A stretch of DNA of 64,000 bases from Diaphorobacter caeni (GTDB lineage Bacteria; Pseudomonadota; Gammaproteobacteria; Burkholderiales; Burkholderiaceae_C): positions 496,001-560,000 of the forward strand of contig NZ_JADKYZ010000002.1 of the NCBI RefSeq assembly GCF_015354245.1, written 5' to 3'. Below are positions 33,901-51,291 of this stretch, one piece after another. The position numbers and the translations under genes were made by a program. Under the pieces are notes generated by a model that did not search any database, was not told where the DNA came from, and saw only the letters and a list, made by a program, of their open reading frames with translations. Positions within the stretch are counted from its first letter, which is position 1, and each line of letters starts with the position of its first letter.

Positions 33901-34611
33901 ATGCCATCTGATTTGCACAACAAGAAATTGAAAGCAGAGTTTGATTTACTCGCCGACAATTACTACCAAGAGCATAAAGCCAATATTTCCATTACTGGCG
34001 AAAACCCCGAATATTTCTCCGAATACAAGATTTCTGATTTTAGTGAATATTTCAAAAATCACACACTTCCCATCGATATATTAGACTTTGGATCTGGAAT
34101 TGGAAATTCCATACCCCACTTTAGAAAATACTTCTCCAACTCCAAACTATGCTGCGCCGATGTTTCATCAAGAAGCATGGAAATTTCCCAGGAAAGATTC
34201 CCTGGAAATGAGAAATATCTACAAATTGATGATTCAATACCTGCCGAAGACAATAGGTTTGATGCCATTTTCACAGCATGCGTATTTCATCACATACCAC
34301 ATATTGACCACAAAAAATGGCTTGCCGAATTAAATAGAGTTACAAAACCAAACGGCGTACTTGCCATATTTGAACACAATCCATTAAACCCACTCACTGT
34401 TCATGCAGTCAACACCTGCCCTATTGACGCAAACGCCAAATTGATTCGCGCTAAATCAATGAAGGAACTACTAATTTCCACCGGATGGAGAAATGTAGAA
34501 ATAGAGTACAAACTATTTTTTCCAAAGGCTCTTAAAAAACTTCGCTTTCTAGAAGCACACATGAAAACAATATTTCTAGGAGCTCAATGGAGAATTACGG
34601 CAGTTAAATGA
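33901..34611 (+). CDS. class I SAM-dependent methyltransferase
   Basis: This 236-aa soluble protein has motif I 'ILDFGSGIGNSIPHF' (about 60-74), an acidic loop (CCADVSSR) and 'FTACVFHHI', typical of Rossmann-fold methyltransferases. The substrate is unknown. Its coding DNA is visibly AT-rich, unlike the genes to the left. It overlaps gtrA by 4 bases, so it is part of the same operon and probably methylates the sugar or lipid carrier handled by the gtr genes. Confidence 0.85.
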   Translation: MPSDLHNKKLKAEFDLLADNYYQEHKANISITGENPEYFSEYKISDFSEYFKNHTLPIDILDFGSGIGNSIPHFRKYFSNSKLCCADVSSRSMEISQERFPGNEKYLQIDDSIPAEDNRFDAIFTACVFHHIPHIDHKKWLAELNRVTKPNGVLAIFEHNPLNPLTVHAVNTCPIDANAKLIRAKSMKELLISTGWRNVEIEYKLFFPKALKKLRFLEAHMKTIFLGAQWRITAVK

Positions 34612-35012
34612 AATCACCCAAAAACATTGCAATATATAAATTTCTGACCGTCGGAACACTAAACACCGCATTTGGTCTCAGTATTATTTATTTTTCAATG
34701 TATTACTTAAAATGGAGCCCGGTACTATCAAACTTGACTGGCTACATTTTCGGACTAGTGCTAGGATATATCTTAAACAAAAATTGGACGTTCAAATCAA
34801 AAGAATCCAGTTATAGCGAGATGCTCCGCTATGCAGTCGTAATTGTAACATCCTATATAGCAAACGTTGGTTTAGTATACCTAAGCACGACACATCTTCA
34901 ATTGAGTCCCTACCTCGCTCAACCACTCGGCATGGTTACATATACTGGACTTACATTTATTGGATGCAAAATATTTGTATTCAAAAGCTCAAAAAATATT
35001 ATTTATGAATAG
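34608..35012 (+). CDS. gtrA: GtrA-family flippase-like membrane protein
   Basis: This 134-aa protein has four transmembrane helices and the family pattern 'YKFLTVGTLNTAFGLSIIYF', 'GYIFGLVLGYILNKNWTF' and 'GLTFIGCKIFVF'. GtrA-type proteins are proposed to flip undecaprenyl-phosphate-linked sugars made by GtrB. It overlaps the methyltransferase by 4 bases and gtrB by 8 bases. AT-rich codon use. Confidence 0.9.
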   Translation: MKSPKNIAIYKFLTVGTLNTAFGLSIIYFSMYYLKWSPVLSNLTGYIFGLVLGYILNKNWTFKSKESSYSEMLRYAVVIVTSYIANVGLVYLSTTHLQLSPYLAQPLGMVTYTGLTFIGCKIFVFKSSKNIIYE

Positions 35013-36006
35013 ATCAAACGACACAGCAACAGTCCCCATCCGCATCGGCATTGTTGTTCCATGCTTCAATGAAGAAGACGTAATACGAGAAACAAATGAT
35101 CGCCTCATTATGCTGATCAATCAGCTGCAAAGTAATGGACTAATCTCACATGAAAGCTCCATTATTTATATCGATGATGGCAGTCGAGATGCAACATGGA
35201 GCATCATTGAGGCACTCTCCCAATCCCACCCCACAGTCAGTGGAATCAAGCTTTCACGTAATCAAGGCCATCAAAATGCTTTGCTTTGTGGCCTTATGAC
35301 ATCTCCTGGGGATGCGCTAATCAGTGTGGATGCCGATCTGCAGGATGACCTCAATGTGATACCTCAAATGATTCATCACTTTCTCAAAGGTAACGAGATA
35401 GTTTATGGCGTAAGAAAGAGTCGAGAAACTGATACATATTTTAAACGATTTACAGCCGAGGGATACTACAAGTTGATGTCGATAATGAAAGTCGACATTA
35501 TATTCAATCATGCCGATTATCGCTTGCTAAGCAGGCGTGCCATAAATGCACTTTCGGAGTATCGAGAGATCAATCTATTTCTACGCGGCCTAGTTCGTCT
35601 TCTCGGATTTAAAAGTGAAGTGGTTGAATATGATCGCGCAGAACGATTTGCCGGAGAATCCAAATACCCTTTACGCAAAATGCTCTCCTTTGCCTGGCAA
35701 GGTATTACCTCTTTCTCAACAGCCCCATTGAGATTAATTACCTTTTTAGGCATAACCGTTTCAATTGTAAGCATTGCGCTTGCCGCCTGGGGATTCCTTT
35801 CCACGCTTTTCACTGATAGTACATTACCAGGTTGGGCCTCCACGGTAATCCCCATGTACTTCCTTGGGGGGGTTCAGTTGTTTAGCCTAGGCATAATTGG
35901 CGAATATATTTCAAAAATCTATATGGAAAACAAAAGCAGACCTCGATTTCATGTGGATCAAAAAATTGGAACCTCATTCTCCAAAAATAAAAAAAACCAC
36001 GAATGA
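35005..36006 (+). CDS. gtrB: GtrB-type bactoprenol glycosyltransferase
   Basis: This 333-aa protein has a GT2 domain ('IGIVVPCFNEEDVI', 'IYIDDGSRDATW', 'ISVDADLQDDL') and two C-terminal transmembrane helices (about 232-255 and 270-290), as in GtrB/dolichol-phosphate-mannose synthases. It transfers a hexose to undecaprenyl phosphate. I start at ATG 35005, overlapping gtrA by 8 bases. The sugar cannot be told. Confidence 0.9.
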   Translation: MNRSNDTATVPIRIGIVVPCFNEEDVIRETNDRLIMLINQLQSNGLISHESSIIYIDDGSRDATWSIIEALSQSHPTVSGIKLSRNQGHQNALLCGLMTSPGDALISVDADLQDDLNVIPQMIHHFLKGNEIVYGVRKSRETDTYFKRFTAEGYYKLMSIMKVDIIFNHADYRLLSRRAINALSEYREINLFLRGLVRLLGFKSEVVEYDRAERFAGESKYPLRKMLSFAWQGITSFSTAPLRLITFLGITVSIVSIALAAWGFLSTLFTDSTLPGWASTVIPMYFLGGVQLFSLGIIGEYISKIYMENKSRPRFHVDQKIGTSFSKNKKNHE

Positions 36007-36080
36007 AGTATTCGACACTAACCCAGATAGTGGTAACAGCCAGTTTTCTTTGGCGTACGCCAGACACGCCTTAAAAGTAT

Positions 36081-38027
36081 ATGGAAACCCCATTCAGACC
36101 TGGAAAAGAGTTTCTTTTCAAAGTTGCAATTATATTGTTCGCCGCATTACATGCGATCCCCTTTTTGGCGGGCTACAGACTTTCAGCGGATGATGTCGCA
36201 TACCACTGGTTTGCGATGAACGGCATTGATGAATCTATAAGATTTATAAAAGAGGCCGCCATCGGCCAAGGGAGAATAGTTCACTTCCCTGATTTAATAA
36301 CCTCTTTAATAGGTGCATACTACGCTGACATACTAGGATTTAGAATATTTTATGTACTTCTATTTTTTTCAACATTCTTTTTATTCTCCACCTATATCAA
36401 TAAGGCTTTTGGATTAAATCTAACTTGGTATGTTTTTTTTATATTACTCGCCCTTCATCCACTGGATTACTTCCATACATCACCCGGCGCATACCCATTC
36501 AAAATCTCTTTTCCAATATTTTTTATATTAATCTCGCGAATAAAAATATTATCAATTAGATCCGACCCCCAAGGCTCATTACTTTCAAGAGAGTTTCCTT
36601 GGCTATGCCTATGTCTCGCAGGCATGCTTTTTAGCGAATATGCATTTGCATTCGCAACCTCCTTAATATTAATAGAATTAATAAGCCGGATCACAATTTC
36701 GATCGCCAAAGAATCAAATACAAGCCCAGTAAAACGACTCTCACAACAAATCCTCTCCAACAAGACTTTTCGCGATTGCTTTCTAATTGCTCTATTTTTA
36801 TTGCTATACATTGGTTTTCGCTTAGTTTTCCCTTCGACATACGATGGCAACAAACTACCACAGAGTTTTGATTTACGATTATTCTCCAAAACGCTAGTAG
36901 CTCATATTGTTGGAGGATCCACCATATCCTCATATATGAGAACCCCCTCCTGGGATATACTCACCAATAACTCAATAAGACCACATCAGTTTATAGAGTT
37001 AGCAACTACCTGCGCACTATCATTTTACATCTCACTAAAGTCAATTGAGCATGTTATTCAATCTCAGAAAAACAGTCGAACCGCGTTGACCGTCGTAACT
37101 TCCGGGTGTTGCGCATTAGCCCTCTCCGTCATCATTACACTCCCTGTCGCCATCACAACAAAATATCAATCTTGGTGCACATCGTTTTCAAACTGCATAT
37201 TCCTCGACAGCAGCCTATCATATATTGGCTTTGGTACGTTTATTGCTTTTTCTTCAATACTAATAATAAACACCAAAAGCAAAGTCACGACGATTTACCC
37301 GTATGTTTTCGCATCCATCATCTCATTGATTGCCACCACCTCAAGTCTCAATAATCTACATATAGAGACTTCAATGCGAAACTATGTCACCGGTTGGGAT
37401 CGGGTAAATTTGATAGCGTGCAACCCTAGCATTGCTTCCAAGACAACTTCCCTATCCAATTTCATAGATCCATCACACCAAATCAGCATGCATCCAAATT
37501 TTGATCATGATAGATATTGGTCCTTACTCGTAGAGCAACAGAAAAAGAAGATATCTCAAGTTGAGTGCGATATCAAAAACAGCACGGCATTCATTGGAGT
37601 GACAAAACACGAGAGAGTCACATTCTCACAAAATGACAAAGGAAGGCAGCTTTTAATCAACGGATGGGCGAATCCGGAAAGCTGGGGAGTATGGTCCAAC
37701 TCCAATCAGGCAAGTCTCTTGATTCCAGTAACTCAGTCGCATGCAGCGATAGAAATCGAAGCAAATGCACTAATCACACCTTCGCATTCTTCTCAAACAG
37801 TTGACATCTTCATTAATGATGAGTTTTTTGAATCATTCAAACTATATAAATCCACTGCCAATTTTATAAACATTGACACGGACAAAATTCGCCAAAGATT
37901 CTCACCAAAAGGAGGCAGCCTCATATTATCATTTTATTTTCATGACGCAAAAAGCCCATCAGCATTAGGAATTAATGCTGACGAGCGAAATTTGGCAATC
38001 GGACTGGTAGCAATTACTATAAATTAA
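36081..38027 (+). CDS. GtrC-like large membrane glycosyltransferase
   Basis: This 648-aa protein has about nine to eleven transmembrane segments, followed by a soluble periplasmic domain (about 480-648). The first loop contains 'GYRLSADDVAYHW', an acidic motif like that of GT-C enzymes. Position after gtrA/gtrB and the size fit a GtrC-type (serotype-specific) transferase, which moves the sugar from the lipid carrier to a glycan. Such proteins are poorly conserved, so no named subtype is given. AT-rich. A bidirectional terminator follows. Confidence 0.75.
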   Translation: METPFRPGKEFLFKVAIILFAALHAIPFLAGYRLSADDVAYHWFAMNGIDESIRFIKEAAIGQGRIVHFPDLITSLIGAYYADILGFRIFYVLLFFSTFFLFSTYINKAFGLNLTWYVFFILLALHPLDYFHTSPGAYPFKISFPIFFILISRIKILSIRSDPQGSLLSREFPWLCLCLAGMLFSEYAFAFATSLILIELISRITISIAKESNTSPVKRLSQQILSNKTFRDCFLIALFLLLYIGFRLVFPSTYDGNKLPQSFDLRLFSKTLVAHIVGGSTISSYMRTPSWDILTNNSIRPHQFIELATTCALSFYISLKSIEHVIQSQKNSRTALTVVTSGCCALALSVIITLPVAITTKYQSWCTSFSNCIFLDSSLSYIGFGTFIAFSSILIINTKSKVTTIYPYVFASIISLIATTSSLNNLHIETSMRNYVTGWDRVNLIACNPSIASKTTSLSNFIDPSHQISMHPNFDHDRYWSLLVEQQKKKISQVECDIKNSTAFIGVTKHERVTFSQNDKGRQLLINGWANPESWGVWSNSNQASLLIPVTQSHAAIEIEANALITPSHSSQTVDIFINDEFFESFKLYKSTANFINIDTDKIRQRFSPKGGSLILSFYFHDAKSPSALGINADERNLAIGLVAITIN

Positions 38028-38125: not shown

Positions 38126-39280
38126 CTACAAATGGGAGTAAATCGCACTTGTACTGCTGGCACATTGCGCCCATGTGAAGGCCAGAGATCGATTCACACC
38201 ATTGGCAGAGACCTGAGCACGCCACACCTCATCCTGCAACGCATGCCCAAGCGCATAGGCAATCGAGGCCTCATCCTCTGGCTGCACCTTCAACCCCACA
38301 TCACCCACCACTTCCGGCAGCGACGAGGTACTTGACGTCAGCACAGGTATCCCCGACGCCATCGCCTCCAGTGGAGGCAAGCCGAACCCTTCATACAAAG
38401 AAGGAAAGCAGAACAGTCGCGCGCCTGCATACAGAAAGGGCAAGTCCTCCTGTGGCACGAAATCCAGATACCTGAGCCACCCCGCGTTAGCTCCGAGCAT
38501 CATTAGATCGTGAATCTCCTCTGCCTGCCAGCCACGAGATCCCGCCAACACCAAAGGCACGTTCATACGCAGCGATTCGGGCAACCGCGCATATGCCCGA
38601 ATCAATCGTGCAAGATTCTTGCGCGGTTCAATGGTCCCTACATACAGCGAATAGCCGCCATGCACCAGTCCATAGCGATGCATTACGGCAGAGGTTTCTT
38701 CGGATGTACGCGGATGAAACGACGTGTCCACACCCAAGGGAACTGCGCAGATCCGATCCTCAGGCCAGTCAAAATGTTCTATCACCTCACGGCGTACGGA
38801 TTCCGCATCGGTGATAAGGAAATCAGCCCGCTCCATTGTTTTCGGCAAGTCTCTCTTCAGCAATTCCACTCGCGCTGCTGGATGAAACTGGGGGCAGACG
38901 ATGTGCGACAAGTCGTGGATCGTCGCCACCGACTTGCCCGGAAACGGAGGCAGAAAATAGTTGGGCGAGTGAAACAACGCATGCCGCTCCTTCTGCATGC
39001 GCCAGCGCGACCAGATGGGCATGAGAGTTGAATAGGCTCGCACCGCCAGCTTGTTGCCGGCAAGCACTCGTCTAAGCGTGGGTCTGTTCAGCTCTTCTGT
39101 GGATACCGTCTTGGCGCGAGCCTGCACCGCCTCACTGCTGATCCATTGCCCGAGGGAGTAGAACCGCAGTGATTCCACGCCTTCGCACTGAGGCAGTCGC
39201 GTCGCCAGTTCATAGGCATAGCGACCAATGCCCGTCAATGGCGCATGAATGGCATCAGCGCCCAGAATGACATGTGCCAC
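38126..39280 (-). CDS. GT4 glycosyltransferase (WbpY-like)
   Basis: This 384-aa GT-B protein has 'TGIGRYAYELATRL' at the N-terminus, 'SLYVGTIEPRKNLARLIRAY' (donor domain) and E-x7-E in 'SLYEGFGLPPLEAM'. These features match mannosyl/rhamnosyltransferases of the WbpY/WbdB type. It is the last gene of the O-polysaccharide operon, one base after rmd. It probably adds D-rhamnose or mannose in the cytosol. A Ser/Thr-rich tail follows the catalytic fold. Confidence 0.85.
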   Translation of the reverse strand: MAHVILGADAIHAPLTGIGRYAYELATRLPQCEGVESLRFYSLGQWISSEAVQARAKTVSTEELNRPTLRRVLAGNKLAVRAYSTLMPIWSRWRMQKERHALFHSPNYFLPPFPGKSVATIHDLSHIVCPQFHPAARVELLKRDLPKTMERADFLITDAESVRREVIEHFDWPEDRICAVPLGVDTSFHPRTSEETSAVMHRYGLVHGGYSLYVGTIEPRKNLARLIRAYARLPESLRMNVPLVLAGSRGWQAEEIHDLMMLGANAGWLRYLDFVPQEDLPFLYAGARLFCFPSLYEGFGLPPLEAMASGIPVLTSSTSSLPEVVGDVGLKVQPEDEASIAYALGHALQDEVWRAQVSANGVNRSLAFTWAQCASSTSAIYSHL

Positions 39281-39281
39281 G

Positions 39282-40184
39282 TCACTGGACTCCTGGCTGG
39301 TCCGACAACATCCAGGTCAGCGTCTCATTCAACGGACGAGGCTCCCATGCGCCTATCAGCTGGCTCAATCGTGACGCGTCACCACACAAGGTCTTCACTT
39401 CATTCGCACGCACGAATGCGGGGTTGGTGACCGCCTTGATCGACTGCCCGGAAATACTTTCGGCCATCTGCAGCACTTCACGCAATGACACCAGCCGACC
39501 CGAGCACACATTCACGGTTTCATCCACGGCCGCATCAGAATCCAGCAAACGGCGATAGGCAGCTGCAACATCGCGGACGTCCGAAAAGTCGCGCCAAACC
39601 TCCATGTTGCCCAGCTCGATCACATCCGCCCGGCGTAAAAAATGACTCACTATCTTCGGCAACAAAAAGCTCTCAGATTGCCCGACGCCCGTGTAATTGA
39701 AAGGGCGCGTAATCGTGATCGGGAGCTTGTCCATCCACAGTCGCGCCATGTACTCCATCGCCAACTTGCTGACCGCATAGTCATTGGCCGGATTGGCGGG
39801 AGTGTGCTCGTTCAGCGCACCCTCGGTCGTGTTGCCATAGATGTTGGCGCTGCTGGCGAGCAACACATGTTCTGGCGATTGAGCAAGCGCAGCCAAAGCG
39901 GAAAGCAGATTGCGTGTACCCACCACATTCACGTCGTAGAAGGCACGTGCGTTGCTGTGCCCCACGAAAGCGATTGCAGCCAGATGAATCACCGCTTGGG
40001 GCTGCACCTGCTGCACCCAATCATCCAAAGCATTCGCGTCCAGCAAGTCCACGTGCCGGTAACGAACCCGCTCCGGTTCAGGATGCGAGCCAAGTCCCCA
40101 GACTTCCCAGCCATGTTGCTCCAACTCACGAGTCAAAAAATGACCCGTGAACCCATTGACACCTGTGATCAGAGCTCGCCGCAC
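39282..40184 (-). CDS. rmd: GDP-4-keto-6-deoxy-D-mannose reductase (GDP-D-rhamnose synthase)
   Basis: This 300-aa short-chain dehydrogenase has the NAD(P) motif GVNGFTGHF (residues 8-16) and the Tyr-x3-Lys catalytic pair in 'DYAVSKLAME', plus 'TRPFNYTGVGQSESFLLPKI' and 'NVCSG', as in RMD. It reduces the 4-keto product of Gmd to GDP-D-rhamnose. It is placed between gmd and a GT4. The L-fucose route (Fcl) is less likely, because length and motifs fit RMD better. Confidence 0.85.
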   Translation of the reverse strand: MRRALITGVNGFTGHFLTRELEQHGWEVWGLGSHPEPERVRYRHVDLLDANALDDWVQQVQPQAVIHLAAIAFVGHSNARAFYDVNVVGTRNLLSALAALAQSPEHVLLASSANIYGNTTEGALNEHTPANPANDYAVSKLAMEYMARLWMDKLPITITRPFNYTGVGQSESFLLPKIVSHFLRRADVIELGNMEVWRDFSDVRDVAAAYRRLLDSDAAVDETVNVCSGRLVSLREVLQMAESISGQSIKAVTNPAFVRANEVKTLCGDASRLSQLIGAWEPRPLNETLTWMLSDQPGVQ

Positions 40185-40196
40185 TTGTGAAGCACC

Positions 40197-41258
<1,062 letters not shown>

Positions 41259-41359: not shown

Positions 41360-42295
41360 TCAAACCAATTGATCCGAAGGATAGCTTCTATACAGCCACG
41401 CAGGCCTTCGCCCCTCATTAATCACATTTTTTTTGATTGATTTGGAGAAAATATACTGCCCCAAATCAAATTTTCTAAAATCCAGCAACCCTCCAAACTT
41501 AGACAAATCGAAGTAATTCCCCGAGCCATTCGCATGGACATCAGCAGTAAAATTCCAAACAGGCTCAAACCCTTCGAAGCGCAAAAGTTTATCAAGCTCA
41601 TGGAGATTATATTCGCGATTATGACGCCCATAAGGCCCATAGCCGCTATAAGGATCATAAATATTAACCCCAGCCAACATTCGAGCAACATTCTCCAAAC
41701 GAGAAACATTTGGAGTGGTAAGAACCAAAACCCCTTCCGGCTTCAATACCCTAAAAATCTCCCGAAGCACTCCGCAAGGGTCATTTTGCATATGTTCGAG
41801 AATTTCAGCAAATATCACCACTTCAAACTGCTCATCTTCGAATGGAAACCTATCATTCTCAACATTGAAGTGATGATATGAATAGGGCTCCGAAGACCTC
41901 ACACCGTCTAAATCAGTAAAGTCCACTTGCTGCTCATAGACTCCATTTTTCTCCAAGGAAAAATAATTGGCAAAGGTAACCTCGAGATTCGTAAATTTCC
42001 TTAGCAATGCCGAAGTAAAATAAGGATTTGCCCCCAATTCAAGGCAACGCCCATTCAGGTCCTGCACCATACCCCATGTGTATGCGAATCGCCTAAAGTC
42101 GGTTTCTGCATATGCACGCATTTCAGCCTCAGGAGCCCCCCTCACCCGAACAGATGTTATGAATTCGTACAACATCTTTTCAGAAACCCCATCTGGCAAC
42201 GGTAATTTTGGCGACAAAGGAAATCTATCAACTGAACTGACAATCGGTATTCTCTTTGCGGCGCGGAGTATTTTTTCAAGCACTGGGTTACCCAA
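41360..42295 (-). CDS. SAM-dependent methyltransferase of the O-polysaccharide operon
   Basis: This 311-aa protein has a Methyltransf-11-type core: 'CLELGANPYFTSALLRKF', 'FEVVIFAEILEHMQNDP' and 'VLKPEGVLVLTTPNVSRLENVARML'. The start is uncertain: TTG at 42295 gives the full frame, 4 bases after the big transferase gene; the next in-frame start is a GTG at 42283. The DNA is more AT-rich than the operon's other end. It may methylate a sugar of the chain. The 128 bases up to gmd hold no gene. Confidence 0.75.
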   Translation of the reverse strand: MGNPVLEKILRAAKRIPIVSSVDRFPLSPKLPLPDGVSEKMLYEFITSVRVRGAPEAEMRAYAETDFRRFAYTWGMVQDLNGRCLELGANPYFTSALLRKFTNLEVTFANYFSLEKNGVYEQQVDFTDLDGVRSSEPYSYHHFNVENDRFPFEDEQFEVVIFAEILEHMQNDPCGVLREIFRVLKPEGVLVLTTPNVSRLENVARMLAGVNIYDPYSGYGPYGRHNREYNLHELDKLLRFEGFEPVWNFTADVHANGSGNYFDLSKFGGLLDFRKFDLGQYIFSKSIKKNVINEGRRPAWLYRSYPSDQLV

Positions 42296-42299
42296 TCAT

Positions 42300-45200
42300 T
42301 TAGTTAATTACCTTCTTCAGAAGGATTTCCGAACTTTTCGCCCAACTCAGCCATGGCATTTCTTCTACGGAAACATGTTCATTTTTTTTATACCTCTCCA
42401 TCCATTCACGAAAAAAAATCGCCAATGAATCGACACCCGAATCACTGAAGTATTCAGCATTTATTCCCGCCACCTCACGAAACACTGGAATATCCCGTGC
42501 GACTATCGGCAGGTTGTGCTGAGCTGCCTCGATGAGAGGCAAACCAAAACCCTCCCCATAAGAGGCCGCAATCAAGCAATTGCAGGCTGCATAAATTTTC
42601 TCCAAATACTCATCACTAATCGACTGAAGCCAAAATAGCCTCTCACCCAGTCGATCATGCCCTTTGATCCTGGCGATCAATTGATCGGTCAACCATCCAG
42701 ACTTACCAACAATCACCAGATTTGCATCAGTTCCAACAGCCCAGAGTTGATCAAACACATCAAGCATTTGAAGATGCCCCTTCCGAGGCTCCAGCGTACC
42801 AACCATGAGAAAGCTGAGACTATTATTCAACTTGGACAAAATCTGTCCCGCCCCCTCAGGCAGCCCGATGCTTGGTATAGAATTATCAATATCAGCCCCG
42901 ATGTGCGCCCAATTTATTATTGGCATATACTCATCAGAATCTATCACCCTCTCTTCAACCCATTTAGACAACTCATCAGCAACTGTCTTACTTATACAAA
43001 TCATCTCATTCGATCGAACAACCACATTCAACCAAGCAAGAAATGCGTCAGAAGCTCCCGGAGGGAAAAATTGAGGCATCGTGATGCTGAGCAAATCGTA
43101 AATCAGAAACTTGACCGCGACCCCATCATCTCTCATACGCTGATAAATGGCAGCGTTAGAGACAACTATTTGAGGATGGAAATCTAAACCGAAGAATATA
43201 TCCCCTGCAGAATACTCCACGATTTCATCGACTTGATTCGTTGAAGAGCATCCCAAAAAGCTTGCTGTAAATGTACGTGCGTACCTGTATCCCTCCTCTA
43301 ACGACGCCTTTACTGGCAAAACGTTAAAACCGGGTGGCGGATTCGAAAGCCATTGTTGCAAAACGCTTCTGACTACACGCTGGATTCCGCTGCGAGCATC
43401 CACACGTACGAGCTCTGATACATCAACCAGCAACTGCCGCGGGTTATAGTTTTCATGCGTCAATGCTTTTTTCAGACGCTCTGCACTTTGAGCCCAAGTC
43501 AACCATCGCATGCCATCGGAGGCAATGTACTGCCCTTGTTCACTCCCAGTTAGCCAATCATGCATGGTATTGGCCAGGGCCTGCGCAGTCTGTCCATGGA
43601 AATAACTGGCGTTCTCACCTGCAATCTCGTGAAAGACTGGGATATCACGAGCGATCACAGGAATTCCAGCTCGTGCCGCTTCGATCAACGGGAGCCCGAA
43701 GCCCTCATTCAGACTGCTGATGATCAAGCAACTTGAACGCTGATATATCTGTGCGAGATATTCATCACTAATGCCCTTAAGCCAAAAAAGCCTGTGCTGG
43801 CTTTCTACATGTCGACCCAAGCGGTCCACCAACTGTTCAACCTTCCAGCCTTGCTTACCAACCAATACCAAGTTGCAATCGACACCTTGCTGCCAAAGCA
43901 GTTCTACAGCGGAAAGAACTTGATCCTGCGCCTTGCGCGGCTCAATCGTCGATACCACAAGAAAAGTAGGTCTGGATGCCAATGCCGAGTACACAGCATT
44001 CGCGCTCGACGGTATTCCACTGGAAGGCTGCGAACCTTCCAGATCAGCACCAATATGCACCCAACTGGTTCTGAATTTCGTGGATGTCTCTATTTCTTTT
44101 GCTTCAATCCATTCATTCAGCGAATCCGCAGTCGCCTTGGATATACAGATAGCCTCATCTTGGCGAGCTATCAAACGAAGCAAATTCTCATGCAACTGAC
44201 TTGCGTGAGGATCTGCAAAGCAATGAGGCAACTGAATCGCCAGCAAGTCGTATACAAGAAACTTGACTGTCACACTCTGCTGACGCAATCTATCAAAGAA
44301 CGACGCATGTTTCAGTTGAACATGATGCTGCATGTCCAATCCGAAGAATAGATCACCACGTTTAAACTGGATGGGTGCATCGTCCAACCTTGCAGCCAAT
44401 GCCTGACCAATAAAGCGTGCTGCGAAGTTTCTCGCGTAGCAATATCCATGCTCAAGAGTTGCAAACACGGGCTCAACCCGAAATCCCTTTGGGGGATTAT
44501 TCAACAGTTGATTCAAATAGGCACGTACAACACGCTGAACTCCTGTTGCAGCATCATTGTGATATAACTCTGAGACATCCACGAACAGTTGGCGCTCCAT
44601 CCCATTGAGCGAGCTCTGAGCAATATCGTGCGACAGGCCTATTAACTCATCGCACGAGAAATCCAAGGGAGAACTCCTCAGTGTAGCAACCAATGGTTTC
44701 CACATATCTTGCCAAGGTGCCGTCAATTGCTGGAGCGGAACTCCGCGACTTGTACCTAGCGCATTTTCCCAAGCTTTAATCGCCTTGGCCGCAGTCACAT
44801 TCCAATCGAATTTTTTCACCTGCACGTGAGAATGTTCACGCAAACGTCCCAGATACTTCTCATCGGTCAGGGCTTGTTGCAAACGGGAACGCATCGATCC
44901 CACATCGAAGGGGTTGAACAGTGCCTCTGCCAGTCCAATCACTTCAGGCAAACTGGTCGTGTTAGATCCAATCACCGGAGATCCACAGGCCATTGCCTCC
45001 GCTACTGGTAACCCAAACCCTTCGTGCCACGACGGAAACACAAACAGCTTACACAGATTATAGAGCAGCACCAATTCATCATGGCTGACATAGCCGGATA
45101 TCAATAATTGCTTTTCCGGCAACTTCAACTCCGTTGCCAAATCATGTAAACCTCGAGCAATGGCTTCGGGCATTCTCCCAGCCAATACCAATTGGTGCTG

Positions 45201-45971
45201 TTCACGTACGGCCGTTGGTAACTCAGCCCACGCTCTCAGCAAGGCAGGCAGATTCTTGCGCTCATCACCACCGCCTGTATAGAGTACAAATGGATGCTGC
45301 AACCCAAGGCGCTGACGCAGCAATTGGGCTTCAGGTGTTTGCGTATCCACCAAGTGGAAGCTGTCATCGACACCCAACAAGGTATTGGTTATAAGCTCCG
45401 GCGCTATCTGCAGCGTCTCTCGCGCTTCATTCTTAGAGAACTCCGAAATTGCAAGAAAGACTTGCGCCTGTTTCAAGAAGCCTATTTGACGGCGGTAATA
45501 GGTTGCATAAAGTGGATTGATATCCAGATACTTTTCAGGAGACACCAATGGAATCAAGTCAAACAACGTGACGCTGGAAATTCCACGAGTGTTCAAACGC
45601 CCCAAACTGATCACTGCATCGTCACCGAAACCTTCGAATAGACTTGTTACATGAACCACATCTGGCTCAAGGCTATCCAGAAATGCCTCACGAATCAACT
45701 CCGCCGCGTGCGCACGATGAGTGTTCCGCGAGTTGCTGGCGTGCACGCTAGTTGGTGCGTGCCATACACGGATATTTGCTTGCGGTAACAGGTCATCGAA
45801 TGCACGCCTAATACTCGCAATGGTCTCTGGCAAAAAGCTGCTCAATGCCAAATAGACCTCATGTTCTCCCCGATTGCGCACTACGGCTTTTGCAAATTCC
45901 ATCGCATAGCGGCCAATCCCCCGGAATCGGCTTTCGGTTTGGGCACCCTGCATATCAATGACAATTCGCAT
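42300..45971 (-). CDS. three-domain GT4 glycosyltransferase (putative polysaccharide polymerase)
   Basis: This 1223-aa protein carries three GT-B/GT4 transferase units: residues about 1-410, 470-835 and 850-1215. Each has a donor-domain signature ('GGGDERKNLPALL', 'STIEPRKAQDQVL', 'GTLEPRKGHLQML') and an E-x7-E motif (EGFGLPVAE, EGFGLPLIE, EGFGLPLIE). Units two and three are clearly homologous to each other ('LFVDVSELYHNDAATGVQRVVR' and 'LLVDVSELVRVDARSGIQRVVR'), pointing to an internal duplication. Its ATG overlaps the upstream stop as TGATG; a GTG at 45974 is possible. It probably builds the O-chain repeat in the cytosol. Confidence 0.87.
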   Translation of the reverse strand: MRIVIDMQGAQTESRFRGIGRYAMEFAKAVVRNRGEHEVYLALSSFLPETIASIRRAFDDLLPQANIRVWHAPTSVHASNSRNTHRAHAAELIREAFLDSLEPDVVHVTSLFEGFGDDAVISLGRLNTRGISSVTLFDLIPLVSPEKYLDINPLYATYYRRQIGFLKQAQVFLAISEFSKNEARETLQIAPELITNTLLGVDDSFHLVDTQTPEAQLLRQRLGLQHPFVLYTGGGDERKNLPALLRAWAELPTAVREQHQLVLAGRMPEAIARGLHDLATELKLPEKQLLISGYVSHDELVLLYNLCKLFVFPSWHEGFGLPVAEAMACGSPVIGSNTTSLPEVIGLAEALFNPFDVGSMRSRLQQALTDEKYLGRLREHSHVQVKKFDWNVTAAKAIKAWENALGTSRGVPLQQLTAPWQDMWKPLVATLRSSPLDFSCDELIGLSHDIAQSSLNGMERQLFVDVSELYHNDAATGVQRVVRAYLNQLLNNPPKGFRVEPVFATLEHGYCYARNFAARFIGQALAARLDDAPIQFKRGDLFFGLDMQHHVQLKHASFFDRLRQQSVTVKFLVYDLLAIQLPHCFADPHASQLHENLLRLIARQDEAICISKATADSLNEWIEAKEIETSTKFRTSWVHIGADLEGSQPSSGIPSSANAVYSALASRPTFLVVSTIEPRKAQDQVLSAVELLWQQGVDCNLVLVGKQGWKVEQLVDRLGRHVESQHRLFWLKGISDEYLAQIYQRSSCLIISSLNEGFGLPLIEAARAGIPVIARDIPVFHEIAGENASYFHGQTAQALANTMHDWLTGSEQGQYIASDGMRWLTWAQSAERLKKALTHENYNPRQLLVDVSELVRVDARSGIQRVVRSVLQQWLSNPPPGFNVLPVKASLEEGYRYARTFTASFLGCSSTNQVDEIVEYSAGDIFFGLDFHPQIVVSNAAIYQRMRDDGVAVKFLIYDLLSITMPQFFPPGASDAFLAWLNVVVRSNEMICISKTVADELSKWVEERVIDSDEYMPIINWAHIGADIDNSIPSIGLPEGAGQILSKLNNSLSFLMVGTLEPRKGHLQMLDVFDQLWAVGTDANLVIVGKSGWLTDQLIARIKGHDRLGERLFWLQSISDEYLEKIYAACNCLIAASYGEGFGLPLIEAAQHNLPIVARDIPVFREVAGINAEYFSDSGVDSLAIFFREWMERYKKNEHVSVEEMPWLSWAKSSEILLKKVIN

Positions 45972-47422
45972 CACTTTTCTTTCGAGGCGTTCTGCTTATC
46001 CAGCTCAGTATTAAGCACAATATATATCTGCTGCCCAAAGTTGCCCAAGCTTTCCACCGACTTGGGTAAATTAATCGCACCCATTCGATTCTCTAGCGAC
46101 GCCCCAAGCGCAGGATTCCAACGCTGAGATATCTGCATAAGATGTTGATGCAATGCGGGAAATCGTGCAAGCTTCTGATTGATGCGAGCACTCCACAGGG
46201 GATTCCGTAAAACGGGACGCATCACTACAGCCAACGGCCGCTGAAACAGATTGATCGAATGCGTCAGCGTGGAATTGGCGACGCCGCGAACGGTTGCACC
46301 AGGATGCATCACACATCCAACAACGAAGCGCACTGGAGCCATTACTCTCCATGAAAAGCTACGACGCAATGCATCACGCTCTTGCTCAAGTAATTTCAAG
46401 CGTTCCGTCATTTGCGCCTCAAACTCCTGAGCAGTTTGAACGCGCAACAACGCTTCATCACGCTCGCGTTGAACGATGTGCAGTCGTTCTATCAATCCGT
46501 CCTGCTCTTGCTGTCGAGAACGGATTTGAGCAATATTAAGTAGATCCCTGCTCATCTGCTCCTGCATACGAGCAATATCTTGCTGCATCAGGGATACACG
46601 ATCAAGCAATCCCGCGTGACGTGCTTCATAGTCACTTTGGAGCGCCGTGATTTCCGTACTACTCCGACCCACATGCTGAGTCTCAAACAGGTTTGCCAGT
46701 TGTCGTAGATCGAGACCATAATCTCTCTGAAAAGCCACATCAAAATCTCTGGCCAGTGACGCATCACTGACCTTTTGAGCGATGATCCCGTAGTCGGGAC
46801 TTACCCCTTCCAGTACATCGGACAGACTAATTTTGGCGCCCTCTTCATGAAGTGCTGCTGATTCCTGCATGCGCAGGATCTTGACGCGAGCGAACTCGTG
46901 GAACTGTGCTAAAAAACTCAACAGAAGCGGAGGGATCGGACGCTGATGTGTAGGGTCGAGATAAAAATTGCAACTTCCCACAACCAAGTTTTCTGGGTTG
47001 GGAGTTTCCAATATCAGAAGACCACCTGGCTTCAGGACCCTTCGTGCCTGCGTCATCAATTCATCCAGCGCTTCAAATGGTATGTGCTCGATGAAATGAA
47101 AGCCTGAGACGATATTTAGCGTATTGTCTGGCAGTGCCCGCAGAAACGCCAACGCATCTCCTTGCTCGACCGTTAGCCCACGCTCTAGGCATGCTGCCAA
47201 CATCCCAGTATCCTTGTCGATGCCGCGCACGCGAAAGCCCTGATCCCTTAGAAGTTCAAGCCATTCACCACGTCCACACCCCAAGTCCAAAATTTCCGCC
47301 TCAGGATACATAGTCAGCAACGGCCTTACGAATGGCAAATAAGCCTCCAGTCGTTCGCGGATCAATTCACGCGAGCCTCGGTAACGATCTTCAAAGGCTC
47401 TATAAAAACTTTCCGTGCTCAT
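45971..47422 (-). CDS. methyltransferase with coiled coil, WbdD-like chain terminator
   Basis: This 483-aa protein has an N-terminal SAM methyltransferase ('ILDLGCGRGEWLELLRDQG' at about 43-61, 'SGFHFIEHIPFEAL') and a long C-terminal coiled coil (about 255-365) followed by a basic, membrane-apposed-looking tail. The layout resembles WbdD, the chain-length terminator of ABC-exported O-antigens, but no kinase domain lies between. In WbdD systems the terminal methyl/phosphate is read by the Wzt C-domain. It overlaps wzt by 4 bases (start ATG 47422) and the three-domain transferase at its other end. Confidence 0.72.
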   Translation of the reverse strand: MSTESFYRAFEDRYRGSRELIRERLEAYLPFVRPLLTMYPEAEILDLGCGRGEWLELLRDQGFRVRGIDKDTGMLAACLERGLTVEQGDALAFLRALPDNTLNIVSGFHFIEHIPFEALDELMTQARRVLKPGGLLILETPNPENLVVGSCNFYLDPTHQRPIPPLLLSFLAQFHEFARVKILRMQESAALHEEGAKISLSDVLEGVSPDYGIIAQKVSDASLARDFDVAFQRDYGLDLRQLANLFETQHVGRSSTEITALQSDYEARHAGLLDRVSLMQQDIARMQEQMSRDLLNIAQIRSRQQEQDGLIERLHIVQRERDEALLRVQTAQEFEAQMTERLKLLEQERDALRRSFSWRVMAPVRFVVGCVMHPGATVRGVANSTLTHSINLFQRPLAVVMRPVLRNPLWSARINQKLARFPALHQHLMQISQRWNPALGASLENRMGAINLPKSVESLGNFGQQIYIVLNTELDKQNASKEK

Positions 47423-48633
47423 CTCTGCATTTCCACTTGAGGCGGTAGCCAACTAACACCGACAAAAGATCCTTTGTTCACATTGATCACATTGAACATC
47501 AATGCCAAATCGCGCCATTCATAGTTGGCAGCAACGTGAGTCGCGCCTTGATGCAGCCCTGTCGTAACAGAGTAGGAACCAACCCCCATATTGGCCGCAA
47601 AATCAAAAATCAAAACGAGCTTCTCGCCTTTTCGCAGTTCATTGATCTCCAGCCCCATATGGTGCGTGTTGGTTCCAAAAATCGGCTGCCCCAACCGATC
47701 TTTGAACATATATCCAAATGCCAAGGAAGACAGGTCTGTCTTTATATCAATCGTGACTCTAAGGCGTACTCTGTCACCCACATTCACATAGTCGACCAAA
47801 TCACCCCGTTCATTGAACAACTCAACTGAATGCACGCGCGCTTCACCCGTACCGGATGTGGTTTGTGCTCGTCCGTCCTCCAAGCGAGTAACTTGAACGG
47901 TAGAATTTTCGCGCTCAGCAATCAATGCATTATAAAAATCCATCACCTCTTCGGGAGGTCCATCCTTTATTACATGCCCATTTTCCAACAGGATTGCACG
48001 GCTGCACAGACTTTGAATGGCTGCGCGATCATGCGAGACAATCAACAGTGTCGTGCCTTGTGATCGGAAATCCCTGATCTTATTGAAACTCTTGTGCTGA
48101 AAATATGCATCGCCGACCGACAGCGCTTCATCAACAATCAGCACATCAGGCCGAACAGCTGTTGCCACACTGAATGCCAGACGCATCTGCATGCCACTGG
48201 AGTAGGTACGCACAGGACGATCAATGTAATCGCCAATTTCAGCAAACTCTTCAATTGTCGGCATACACCGTCCGATCTCATCCGAGCGTAGCCCCAGCAA
48301 TTGACCGGCCATGAAGACGTTCTGGCGCCCCGTGAAATCCGGATGGAAGCCCATGCCCAGTTCCAACAGTGCTGCCACCCGTCCATGCGACTGTACTCGA
48401 CCATCTGTCGGCTGCGTTGTGCCAGTAATGATCTTTAGCAAGGTGCTTTTCCCCGCACCATTCACACCGACAAGCCCTACAGCCTCACCAGGAGCAATCG
48501 TAAAATTGACGTCCCGAAGAATCCATTTTTTCTCGTGACCCGACTTACCCGTCAGCCACTCGACAACACGACTCCATTTGCTGCGATAGCGTTTATAGGC
48601 CTTACTGACATTGGAGACAACAAGCGTGCCCAT
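47419..48633 (-). CDS. wzt: O-polysaccharide ABC transporter ATPase Wzt with carbohydrate-binding domain
   Basis: This 404-aa protein has an ABC ATPase (Walker A 'GVNGAGKST', signature 'YSSGMQMRLAFS', Walker B 'VLIVDEALSVGD') and a C-terminal beta-sandwich (about 255-395, 'ANMGVGSYSVTTGLH') of the Wzt carbohydrate-binding type. The C-domain of known homologues recognises the terminated, modified chain end. Its ATG overlaps the wzm stop as TGATG. Confidence 0.94.
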   Translation of the reverse strand: MGTLVVSNVSKAYKRYRSKWSRVVEWLTGKSGHEKKWILRDVNFTIAPGEAVGLVGVNGAGKSTLLKIITGTTQPTDGRVQSHGRVAALLELGMGFHPDFTGRQNVFMAGQLLGLRSDEIGRCMPTIEEFAEIGDYIDRPVRTYSSGMQMRLAFSVATAVRPDVLIVDEALSVGDAYFQHKSFNKIRDFRSQGTTLLIVSHDRAAIQSLCSRAILLENGHVIKDGPPEEVMDFYNALIAERENSTVQVTRLEDGRAQTTSGTGEARVHSVELFNERGDLVDYVNVGDRVRLRVTIDIKTDLSSLAFGYMFKDRLGQPIFGTNTHHMGLEINELRKGEKLVLIFDFAANMGVGSYSVTTGLHQGATHVAANYEWRDLALMFNVINVNKGSFVGVSWLPPQVEMQR

Positions 48634-49436
48634 CAGAGTTCATCCACCAGTTCGCCAACTCGCGAAAGAAAAAACCAAGCACCGATCAACAAAAAGCATA
48701 CCGTCACAACACACACAGGCAGAAGGCTGCGCCAATCTGGAAGAAGCCCATCCAAGAAAAGCCGTTGATAGGAAGAGATCAATGCATGCATGGGATTGAA
48801 TTTCAGCAGTCGCTGAGCGGTTTCTGGTAGAGCCGAAAACGTATAGACAATCGGTGTCAACCAAAACCAGAATTGCAACACCACCCCCGTCAGTTGGCCC
48901 ACATCACGAAAAAAAACATTAAGCGTTCCAAGAAAAACCCCCAGCCCCAGTGCAAACAGAATCTGCAGTGCCAGCAAAGGGATAAATGCCAGCAATGTGA
49001 GCCCACCCCAATGTCCTACGGCCAGCAAAAAAACCAAGTAGATGACCATTAAAATACCGAAATTAATCAGTGCAGACAAAGTCACAATCACCGGGAGACA
49101 GATCCGCGGGAAATTTGATTTTTTAATCAAATTTCCATTTTCAACAAATACATTATTGAGTCGACTCAACATCTCCGAAAACAGATTCCAGGTAATGACG
49201 CCGGAGCAAAGATAGATGCTAAATGCATAGGGTGTTTGCTCATGACCAGCAAGAGTGTTGCCCATCAACTGCCCGAAAATCACCGTATAAATCACAATCA
49301 TGGTCAGTGGATTCGCCACCGACCAGAACGCACCCAACAGCGACTCTCGGTACTTGCCATGGAACTCGCGCATGACGCTGCTCCATACAAATCCGCGATA
49401 CGCCCACAGCGCACGAAACATGGCTAACCCAGGCAT
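48633..49436 (-). CDS. wzm: O-polysaccharide ABC transporter permease Wzm
   Basis: This 267-aa integral membrane protein has six transmembrane helices and the ABC-2 pattern 'KYRESLLGAFWSVANPLTMIVIYTVIFG', 'FFRDVGQLTGVVLQFWFWLTPIVY' and 'NPMHALISSYQ'. With Wzt it exports the finished undecaprenyl-linked polysaccharide across the inner membrane. Six bases separate it from manC. ATG 49436 is chosen; 49421 is the alternative. Confidence 0.94.
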   Translation of the reverse strand: MPGLAMFRALWAYRGFVWSSVMREFHGKYRESLLGAFWSVANPLTMIVIYTVIFGQLMGNTLAGHEQTPYAFSIYLCSGVITWNLFSEMLSRLNNVFVENGNLIKKSNFPRICLPVIVTLSALINFGILMVIYLVFLLAVGHWGGLTLLAFIPLLALQILFALGLGVFLGTLNVFFRDVGQLTGVVLQFWFWLTPIVYTFSALPETAQRLLKFNPMHALISSYQRLFLDGLLPDWRSLLPVCVVTVCFLLIGAWFFLSRVGELVDEL

Positions 49437-49442
49437 CTGAAA

Positions 49443-50912
49443 TCAGGCTCCTGCAGACTCGTTAGCGACACGTCCATACGTATCTTCGAAACGAACAATA
49501 TCGTCTTCGCCCAAATAGCTCCCAGACTGCACTTCCACGATCTCCAGCGGCAACTTGCCTGGATTGCGCAGCCTGTGCACATGGCCAAGAGGAATGAACG
49601 TCGATTCGTTTTCCCCCAGCAGCAGCACCTGATCACCGTTCGTGACCTCGGCGGTCCCTTTGACCACCACCCAGTGTTCCGCGCGATGGTGGTGCATTTG
49701 CAGGCTCAGACTGGCACCTGGATTCACCACAATGCGCTTGACCTGGAAGCGCTCTCCGTAGTCGATGCTGTCGTACCAGCCCCAGGGGCGATGGACCTTG
49801 CGGTGCGAATGGGCCAGATCCTTGCCGTGCTTTTGAAGGTGGGCGACGATCTGTTTGACTTCCTGAGTACGGCGCAAGTCGGCGACGAGGATGGCGTCAG
49901 GGGTTTCGACTACGGCGATGTGCTCGAGGCCCACACCGGCGACGAGGCGGCTGCTCGACAGGAACAGGGAGTTCTTGCAGCCATGTTGCACGGCGTTGCC
50001 GATGATGGCATTGCCGTTTTCGTCATGTTCTCGCACGCTCCAGAGGGCGTCCCATGCACCGACGTCGGACCATCCCGCCTGGAGCGGGATGACGCGTGCG
50101 GCGATGCCTAGTTCCGGCAATTTGGGCAGGCGCTCCATCACTGCGTAGTCAATGGAGTCGGAAGGACTGGCCTTGAAGGCTGCGGCTTCAGGACGCACGA
50201 AGTCGGCGTCTCGCTGGGCATCGTTCATCGATTGTTCGCACGCGGCAAGAATGTCCGGGCGACATTGCTGCATGGCCTTGAGCCAGACGCTGGCACGGAC
50301 GACGAACAGGCCGCTGTTCCACAGATAGTTGCCTGCTGCAAGATAGCTTTGAGCACGCTCGCGATCAGGCTTTTCGACGAAACTCTGGACTTCAAACGTG
50401 CCGCCCTGCTCGGTCGTGCCGTGCTGGATGTAACCATAGCCGGTTTCGGGACGATCCGCGACGATGCCGAAGGTGACCATGTCGCCTTTGCTTGCAGCGC
50501 AGAAGGCGCTTTGGACGGCTGCGTGGAAAGCAGCCTTGTCGGCGATCACGTGGTCTGCGGGCATTGCCAGCATCACGGGGTCGGCACCATCAACTCGCGC
50601 CTGAAGCGCAGCGATGGTGAGTGCAGGAGCGGTATTGCGACCCGTCGGCTCCAGCAGAATGCGGGCGTTGTCGATGTTTGACTGCTGCAGTTGGCTGGCA
50701 ACAAGAAAGCGGTGCTCGACATTGCAGACCAGCAGCGGAGCCGAAAGCTCCACGTTCGGCGCAATGCCCTGCAATCTGGTTGCAGTGTCCTGCAGCATGC
50801 TGGCAGTGCCTGCCAAGGCATGGAACTGCTTGGGATAGGTTTCGCGCGAAAGCGGCCACAGACGTGTGCCCGAGCCACCGCAGAGAATGACGGGAAGAAG
50901 CTGATCAGTCAT
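49443..50912 (-). CDS. manC: mannose-1-phosphate guanylyltransferase / mannose-6-phosphate isomerase
   Basis: This 489-aa bifunctional enzyme has an N-terminal pyrophosphorylase (LCGGSGTRLWPLSRE near residues 10-24, 'FVEKP') and a C-terminal type II PMI cupin ('RPWGWYDSIDYGERFQVKRI', 'LSLQMHHHRAEHWVVVKG'). It supplies GDP-mannose for gmd/rmd. I start at ATG 50912 (MTDQLLPVILCGG), which overlaps the upstream DUF2304 gene by 8 bases. The longer frame to 50987 is not conserved-like. Confidence 0.94.
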   Translation of the reverse strand: MTDQLLPVILCGGSGTRLWPLSRETYPKQFHALAGTASMLQDTATRLQGIAPNVELSAPLLVCNVEHRFLVASQLQQSNIDNARILLEPTGRNTAPALTIAALQARVDGADPVMLAMPADHVIADKAAFHAAVQSAFCAASKGDMVTFGIVADRPETGYGYIQHGTTEQGGTFEVQSFVEKPDRERAQSYLAAGNYLWNSGLFVVRASVWLKAMQQCRPDILAACEQSMNDAQRDADFVRPEAAAFKASPSDSIDYAVMERLPKLPELGIAARVIPLQAGWSDVGAWDALWSVREHDENGNAIIGNAVQHGCKNSLFLSSSRLVAGVGLEHIAVVETPDAILVADLRRTQEVKQIVAHLQKHGKDLAHSHRKVHRPWGWYDSIDYGERFQVKRIVVNPGASLSLQMHHHRAEHWVVVKGTAEVTNGDQVLLLGENESTFIPLGHVHRLRNPGKLPLEIVEVQSGSYLGEDDIVRFEDTYGRVANESAGA

Positions 50913-51291
50913 GGTAGGAGGAGATGACAGACGATGCGGAGGCGGTATTGCGCGGAAGGCTTTCCATATCCGCCTCAAGCATCGCAAGACGTTGATTCAA
51001 TCGGCGCACATCGCGCTCGATGCGCGTGTTCACCATGTCCGCGTGCAGTGCCTTGACGAACAGCACAATGCAGGCAAAAAGCAAAAGCAAGGCAGGCGGG
51101 TAGGAGATACCCACGGAATAGGCGATGCGGTCGACCAGTCCTGGCCAGGCGCCAAGCAGCGCGGCGGCGGCGGCGACGGCGACCCAGAACAGGCCGTGCA
51201 TCAAGTAAAGATGATCGCGGCGAATCAGATACAAAATCAGAATCGCCAGCCCCACGCCCAAGAGCATGGTGGTGGTTTGCAAAGACGCCAT
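50905..51291 (-). CDS. DUF2304 membrane protein, first gene of the O-polysaccharide operon
   Basis: This 128-aa protein has three transmembrane helices, 'YLIRRDHLYLMHGLFWVAV' and a short C-terminal coiled coil ('RIERDVRRLNQRLAMLEADME'). This is the DUF2304 pattern, common beside polysaccharide genes but without assigned function. It overlaps manC by 8 bases. I start at ATG 51291 (MASLQTTTML); the frame reaches 51351. Its place at the operon head suggests a role in lipid-linked precursor formation, by inference. Confidence 0.75.
   Translation of the reverse strand: MASLQTTTMLLGVGLAILILYLIRRDHLYLMHGLFWVAVAAAAALLGAWPGLVDRIAYSVGISYPPALLLLFACIVLFVKALHADMVNTRIERDVRRLNQRLAMLEADMESLPRNTASASSVISSYHD

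Follow-up and report, generated by a model that had tools for sequence, protein, structure and literature searches.

Exploring a 64,000-nucleotide stretch of the Diaphorobacter caeni genome (assembly GCF_015354245.1, contig NZ_JADKYZ010000002.1, positions 496,001 to 560,000; hereafter the window), we found at 42300-45974 on the minus strand a single, uninterrupted open reading frame (ORF) for a putative multi-module glycosyltransferase (GT) that lies among O-polysaccharide genes. The protein has 1224 amino acids (aa) from a GTG start and 1223 aa from an ATG one codon later; the coordinates 42300-45971 of the original prediction denote the same frame counted from the ATG. According to that prediction, three complete GT4 domains, each with an E-x7-E pair, lie in one frame, and domains two and three share a repeated opening. 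Both claims are borne out. PF00534 (Glycos_transf_1) matched three stretches of the protein (Pfam, E = 5.3e-78 for the whole protein), and in a scan of the whole genome with this profile the three places scored 96.6, 94.6 and 82.4 bits, each well above the cut-off of 26.4 and far beyond chance. The E-x7-E pair is intact in all three modules (residues 318-326, 757-765 and 1141-1149), so that no domain lacks its catalytic glutamate, and the opening VDVSEL occurs at residues 465 and 850. Aligned over 381 aa, modules 2 and 3 share 46% identity, indicating that the shared opening belongs to a full-length homology; module 1 is distant from both (24-27% identity over 96-161 aa). Module types (Dn, Dsel, NT2, O8_2, O8_3) were called with hidden Markov models (HMMs), each built from one to four seeds (the generic model from twelve); the seeds include proteins of the window and of E. 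coli. The protein and its parts are as follows:

42300 to 45974, minus strand: predicted three-module GT4 polymerase of the WbdA type, 1223-1224 aa (ORF, Pfam, motif)
44730 to 45971, minus strand: module 1, Dn type, residues 2-415, similar to module 1 of O8 WbdA (46.8% over 417 aa)
43452 to 44600, minus strand: module 2, Dsel type, residues 459-841 (HMM 655 bits, itself a seed)
42303 to 43445, minus strand: module 3, Dsel type, residues 844-1224 (HMM 658 bits, itself a seed)
44997 to 45023, minus strand: E-x7-E of module 1, EGFGLPVAE
43680 to 43706, minus strand: E-x7-E of module 2, EGFGLPLIE
42528 to 42554, minus strand: E-x7-E of module 3, EGFGLPLIE

Structure prediction, proposed earlier as a check on the three domains, yielded one model of residues 1-845 (mean predicted local distance difference test score 87.2, predicted template modelling score 0.70) and one of residues 456-1224 (89.6 and 0.56), which together span all three modules. 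Both models were confident inside the modules and not in the placement of the modules relative to each other. GT-B enzymes led the 50 PDB matches listed per model by Foldseek. MshA, BshA, HepE and GlgM were among the matches listed, as was 8qoy, a capsule multienzyme; these are matches to whole models and are not assigned to individual modules. From the Pfam stretches, the motif and these models, each module is predicted to be a GT4 enzyme of GT-B fold with a catalytic E-x7-E. By sequence, 6kih and 7qsg were the only PDB chains matched at E ≤ 1e-8. A frameshift or assembly artefact was rejected as the source of the long ORF, because relatives of the same length and 50% identical over the full length exist in Paraburkholderia.

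The minus-strand gene order is ManC, Wzm, Wzt, a methyltransferase, the polymerase, a second methyltransferase, Gmd, an Rmd-like protein and the GT4 at 38126; by its coordinates, the start of the polymerase gene overlaps the stop of the upstream methyltransferase gene. The neighbouring features are:

49443 to 50987, minus strand: ManC, GDP-mannose synthesis (TIGR01479, 672 bits)
48633 to 49436, minus strand: Wzm, ABC-2 permease (PF01061)
47419 to 48633, minus strand: Wzt with a C-terminal carbohydrate-binding domain (PF14524, Wzt_C; 61% over 404 aa to O8 Wzt)
45971 to 47452, minus strand: putative chain-terminating methyltransferase, WbdD(O8)-like, 493 aa (PF13489; 47% over 283 aa to the O8-type protein)
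41360 to 42295, minus strand: second methyltransferase (PF13489)
40197 to 41249, minus strand: Gmd, GDP-mannose 4,6-dehydratase (TIGR01472 above cut-off; 85% to E. coli O99 Gmd)
39282 to 40184, minus strand: Rmd-like GDP-4-keto-6-deoxymannose reductase (58% to the gene in the E. coli O99 rmd position)
38126 to 39280, minus strand: WbdB-like adaptor GT4 (39% over 381 aa to the protein in the O8 WbdB position)
31504 to 33354, plus strand: WbdC-like GT4 fused to a GT2 domain, 616 aa (PF00534, PF00535; 27% over 373 aa to WbdC)

The gmd and rmd-like genes point to GDP-D-rhamnose, both of the predicted activities that it requires being encoded at the locus. The PDB matches of the Rmd-like protein begin with a putative epimerase (4lw8), followed by the GDP-6-deoxy-mannose reductases 6x3b and 2pk3. 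The expectation of three GT modules in one protein at a locus for GDP-D-rhamnose is upheld, and a chain polymerase is the most likely role of this protein. The original prediction had also made the GT4 at 38126 the primer enzyme; its likeness to WbdB, its nearest match among the E. coli O8 proteins, would make it an adaptor enzyme instead. A better candidate for adding the first adaptor residue is the product of the gene at 31504, the N-terminal part of which is covered by the WbdC match; it is probably the first adaptor enzyme. Lipid priming requires an enzyme of the WecA/WbpL type, and candidates for it (PF00953) lie at two places in the genome, both outside the window, and ligase-family candidates (PF04932) at two places elsewhere in the genome. 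None of the eight loci compared gave a match to the second methyltransferase at E ≤ 1e-10. In a sister locus (L028) the WbdC-like and WbdB-like genes are direct neighbours; in the window a stretch of low G+C (33901-38027, 37-42%) lies between them and holds genes for a methyltransferase, a GtrA protein (PF04138, 34608-35012), a GT2 (34960-36006) and a protein of 648 aa that matches no Pfam family. This stretch looks like an O-antigen side-chain (gtr) cassette inserted between adaptor genes.

The yardstick of novelty in the original prediction was the A-band (common polysaccharide antigen) locus of Pseudomonas aeruginosa. That locus has the GDP-D-rhamnose pathway and export by an ATP-binding cassette (ABC) transporter in common with the window, but carries three separate transferases, WbpX, WbpY and WbpZ, from which the one fused protein of the window is set apart here by description only. 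A WbpX/Y/Z fusion as the origin was rejected, the closest relatives found being WbdA modules in a comparison that did not include the WbpX/Y/Z sequences. A closer parallel is WbdA of Klebsiella pneumoniae O5 (equal to E. coli O8), described as having a separate module for each type of linkage, three in all, each dependent on GDP-mannose (PMC11231755). Given that a three-module WbdA is already published, a polymerase of this kind beside wzm, wzt and a methyltransferase gene is already known, and the A-band comparison overstated how strange the window protein is. The E. coli IAI1 locus, whose transporter is labelled O8 family in RefSeq, has the order manC, rfbK, wzm, wzt, a methyltransferase gene, the gene of a 1213-aa glycosyltransferase, a GT4 gene and wbdC. 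O8 WbdA and the window protein are alike in having three modules in one protein of similar size (1213 aa in IAI1, 1223-1224 aa in the window), with modules 1 that are 47% identical, and in both loci Wzm, Wzt with a carbohydrate-binding domain and a methyltransferase stand beside the polymerase and a WbdB relative is present. O8 differs in that its modules 2 and 3 are of other lineages, its wb genes lack gmd and rmd, and its adaptor GTs are placed otherwise. In BLASTP, modules 2 and 3 of the window matched the C modules of the O99 and NT1N31 polymerases of E. coli at 40-43% over 378-384 aa. Against O8 module 2 only short alignments were obtained (42 aa at 38%, 118 aa at 30%), and against O8 module 3 there were none at E ≤ 1e-3. 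Both are called Dsel, not O8_2 or O8_3, and by sequence the protein falls outside the narrow O8-type three-module WbdA; with at least two GT modules, a WbdA-like N module and a predicted WbdD-type terminator and Wzt with a binding domain adjacent, it is of the WbdA type in the wider sense.

WbdA of E. coli O9 (strain HS, not an HMM seed) was called Dn+Dsel, and thus has both module types of the window protein; it differs in having a single Dsel, as a two-module mannan polymerase, and its WbdD is described as a kinase-methyltransferase (PMC3482155), unlike the window terminator. In O3/O9-type WbdA the N domain is reported to form the 1,2 linkage and the C domain the 1,3 linkage (PMC5529442), so that by homology module 1 of the window protein would be of the 1,2 type and modules 2 and 3 of the 1,3 type. 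Two E. coli loci, known here from genes alone, likewise combine a multi-module Dn/Dsel polymerase with gmd, an rmd-like gene and then WbdB-/WbdC-like GTs: the polymerase of O99 (CU42ET-1) is an 831-aa Dn+Dsel protein of two modules and that of NT1N31 a 1241-aa Dn+NT2+Dsel protein, in place of Dn+Dsel+Dsel in the window. The NT1N31 locus, with its gmd/rmd genes and three-module polymerase (L035:2496-16742), possibly specifies a D-rhamnose O-antigen. The nearest chemical parallel is Yersinia enterocolitica O:10, for which the gene order manC-manB-wzm-wzt-methyltransferase-GT-gmd-rmd-GT-GT, similar to that of the window, a backbone of D-rhamnose only and loss of the O-antigen on deletion of wzm are described (PMC11380512). 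WsaE of Geobacillus stearothermophilus, which acts in S-layer glycan synthesis, is also a multi-domain GT protein, but is described with just two GT domains, L-rhamnose and a methyltransferase within the same protein (PMC2943079).

Genome contigs were scanned with an alignment of the methyltransferase, and the best 80 of at least 542 confirmed relatives were fetched with flanks ending at 10 kb; the counts therefore lean toward close methyltransferase relatives. In each locus we took as the polymerase whichever ORF scored highest among those of 600 aa or more that lacked a strong match to methyltransferases; by this rule methyltransferase-polymerase fusions are not counted. Dn+NT2+Dsel was found in 41 of the 80 loci, Dn+Dsel in 21, Dn+O8_2+O8_3 in three and Dn+NT2+Dsel+Dsel in one, and a clear polymerase call or the polymerase itself was absent in 12. 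The make-up of the window, Dn+Dsel+Dsel, was found in two (L099 and L108), both from Paraburkholderia; their polymerases, of predicted function, are the 50% identical relatives mentioned above. Exactly three assigned modules were counted in 46 loci and four in one, some modules being partial (e.g. L038, L054, L097). Three-module polymerases are thus the commonest form in the sampled 80 loci and the make-up of the window is rare; the kind of protein is already known. Two loci counted as Dn+Dsel (L083 and L091) have an unassigned middle of ~417 aa, which in L083 matches GT9, giving a 1218-aa Dn + GT9 (heptosyltransferase-type) + Dsel polymerase in Paraburkholderia nodosa (L083:11729-15385). A Crenothrix locus (L090:4606-8991) encodes a 1461-aa polymerase with apparently four GT modules, the first partial, and a contig labelled Methanosaeta carries a Dn+Dsel polymerase with a methyltransferase (L114:11158-13695), from transfer to the archaeon or from a binning error.

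A plasmid search listed 33 records, of which five were fetched; the four that were module-called (Novosphingobium, Rhizobium, Jannaschia and Azospirillum) were all Dn+NT2+Dsel. Among 40 genomes, its own included, no relative aligned beyond about one module, and the best match outside the own genome covered residues 826-1220 of the query. A search of 99 Pseudomonas genomes by Rmd was positive in 12 (E ≤ 1e-60); gmd accompanied rmd at all 12 loci, a WbdB- or WbdC-like gene at nine and a short Wzt with further GTs at two.

Four loci of the same genus, from five genomes (the fifth yielded a 3.1-kb contig), were compared with the window. The genes for Gmd (94-96% identity), Rmd (77-91%) and the WbdB-like (80-87%) and WbdC-like (82-89%; split across two overlapping ORFs in L026) enzymes were conserved, as was manC (86-95%; in three of the four it runs off the end of the locus). 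The transporter was less conserved (Wzm 69-75%, Wzt 63-70%), and the window Wzt is closer to that of Thiocapsa (73%, L036) than to those of its own genus. The polymerases differed: L026 has a 1001-aa Dn+NT2 protein, those of L028 (1590 aa) and L029 (1672 aa) consist of FkbM-methyltransferase+O8_2+O8_3+Dsel, and all that L027 offers in this role is an ORF of 342 aa that matches Dsel weakly. In L028 (11953-16725) and L029 (11588-16606) terminator and polymerase apparently lie within one protein. The G+C content of the window is 43-51% at 41-49 kb, 53-58% over the WbdB-rmd-gmd genes and 62-68% at 30-33 and 52-55 kb. Conserved ends, differing polymerases and this profile fit a replacement of central genes, and suggest that O-antigen types may be swapped by such replacement between conserved ends. 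For Massilia, gmd-rmd-wbaX-wbaY is described in every species that was examined, and most are said to have wzm and wzt together with an unannotated gene and wbaX (PMC9834719), so that such layouts are already in print; a literature search for a Massilia O-antigen with D-rhamnose found no paper.

Together, these data are best explained, at a probability of roughly 60%, if the 1223-aa protein is the WbdA-type polymerase of a methyl-capped D-rhamnan made by the ABC-transporter pathway, with one 1,2 and two 1,3 modules. The predicted linkages would suit an A-band-like D-rhamnan, though they do not settle the repeat. A WecA/WbpL-type enzyme would prime undecaprenol, and the WbdC-like (31504) and WbdB-like (38126) enzymes would add the adaptor. 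Anchored to the membrane through the methyltransferase, the three-module protein would then extend the chain on the cytoplasmic side from GDP-D-rhamnose, module 1 forming 1,2 linkages and modules 2 and 3 forming 1,3 linkages, as their homology to O9 WbdA suggests, with retention. The methyltransferase would cap the chain end, Wzt read the cap and Wzm-Wzt export the chain. Such a polymerase-terminator model has been worked out for E. coli O8/O9 (PMC3482155, PMC11231755), and in Aquifex a Wzt domain has been shown to recognise a 3-O-methyl mannose cap (PMC9445017).

The main doubt on this account is the donor sugar, and a number of observations weigh against it. No O-antigen chemistry of the source strain was found. 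Dsel modules do not mark D-rhamnose, because O9 WbdA (Dn+Dsel) is annotated as a mannan polymerase, and we rejected them as a marker. Within the 10-kb flanks, gmd and rmd were both present at 8 of the 41 Dn+NT2+Dsel loci and 9 of the 21 Dn+Dsel loci, and neither was present at 30 of the 41; the flanks of the two Paraburkholderia loci, differing here from the window, show gmd and no rmd. In a Pseudomonas ceruminis locus of this survey (L047) gmd and rmd are not in the flank, and the genome has an rmd-gmd block elsewhere, on a contig equal in length to that of the locus (140,955 bases). Compared with the Yersinia order, the window has no manB (phosphomannomutase) beside manC, the rest of the genome not having been searched for one, carries an extra methyltransferase and has its WbdC-like gene 7 kb off on the opposite strand; the second methyltransferase and the gtr-like island fall outside what the account explains. 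Finally, across the genus there is little change in gmd, rmd and the adaptor genes (77-96% identity in the four loci), while the polymerase differs or is not recognised, so that D-rhamnose could belong to the adaptor. The polymerase would then use GDP-mannose, or both donors, for a mannan or mixed chain, and GDP-D-rhamnose would serve the WbdB-/WbdC-like enzymes. The Massilia loci, all said to carry the gmd-rmd-wbaX-wbaY block, the mannan made by Dn+Dsel of O9 and an Aquifex O-antigen described as mixing rhamnose and mannose (PMC9445017) speak for this explanation, which we nevertheless consider somewhat unlikely, since the polymerase genes of E. coli O99 and NT1N31 have gmd and an rmd-like gene immediately behind them, and the window resembles in gene order Y. 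enterocolitica O:10 with its reported all-D-rhamnose backbone.

The two Dsel modules have a history of their own. A tree built from 84 Dsel domains over 399 columns placed module 2 of the window as sister to the pair of Paraburkholderia modules 2 (100/99), and module 3 in a group of seven (99/85) with the pair of Paraburkholderia modules 3 and four terminal modules of other polymerases, indicating that two Dsel modules were present before the polymerases of the window and of Paraburkholderia diverged. Modules 2 and 3 lie in different old lineages, and on this ground a recent tandem duplication within the genome was rejected. The deeper branches joining them are weakly supported (80/75, 89/80), and the second Dsel may therefore have come by duplication or by acquisition from elsewhere. 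At 49 positions, 95% or more of the 84 domains share the residue of window module 3, and module 2 has retained that residue at 47 of them, including E-x7-E and R-K. Module 2 departs from nearly all Dsel domains at some conserved positions, among them N756, just before the first glutamate (G in 90% of the other 81 domains), T615 (V in all other 81) and L598 (W in 91%). These departures could mean that module 2 is no longer a transferase and now serves as a scaffold or regulator, but we hold this to be very unlikely: the conserved positions are retained, and the same changes are kept in the two Paraburkholderia copies of module 2, which argues for a selected function. We infer from these sequences that modules 2 and 3 have kept and distinct functions.

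The original prediction inferred that a fused enzyme could add several residues per repeat in an order set by domain order; taken strictly, this is an assembly line in which every module contributes a single residue to each repeat. The distinct old lineages of modules 2 and 3 are consistent with this, as is the statement that O3/O5 WbdA has one module per linkage type (PMC11231755). The same source, however, describes O9-type WbdA in which one domain adds two residues and the other two or three, and K. pneumoniae O3b is reported to make a trisaccharide repeat though its WbdA has one N and one C transferase domain (PMC5529442), so that the repeat is not determined by how many modules there are. 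No feature of the sequence links chain order to protein order, the order rule is not borne out, and a strict assembly line is unlikely. Only tentatively, we propose that the starting point was an O9-type polymerase to which a second 1,3 module was added long ago, and that one of the two 1,3 modules adds 1,3-D-rhamnose on a 1,2-linked residue and the other on a 1,3-linked residue.

If true, the 1,3 modules would be specialised, with one module per residue and an A-band-type trisaccharide from one protein, unlike O9 WbdA, one module of which adds two residues, and the specialisation would be readable in L598, T615 and N756, the changes specific to module 2. How one WbdA module adds more than one sugar is presented as an open question in PMC11231755; polymerases that have this module type once (E. 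coli O9, O99 and several Pseudomonas) or twice (the window and Paraburkholderia) offer a natural comparison for it.

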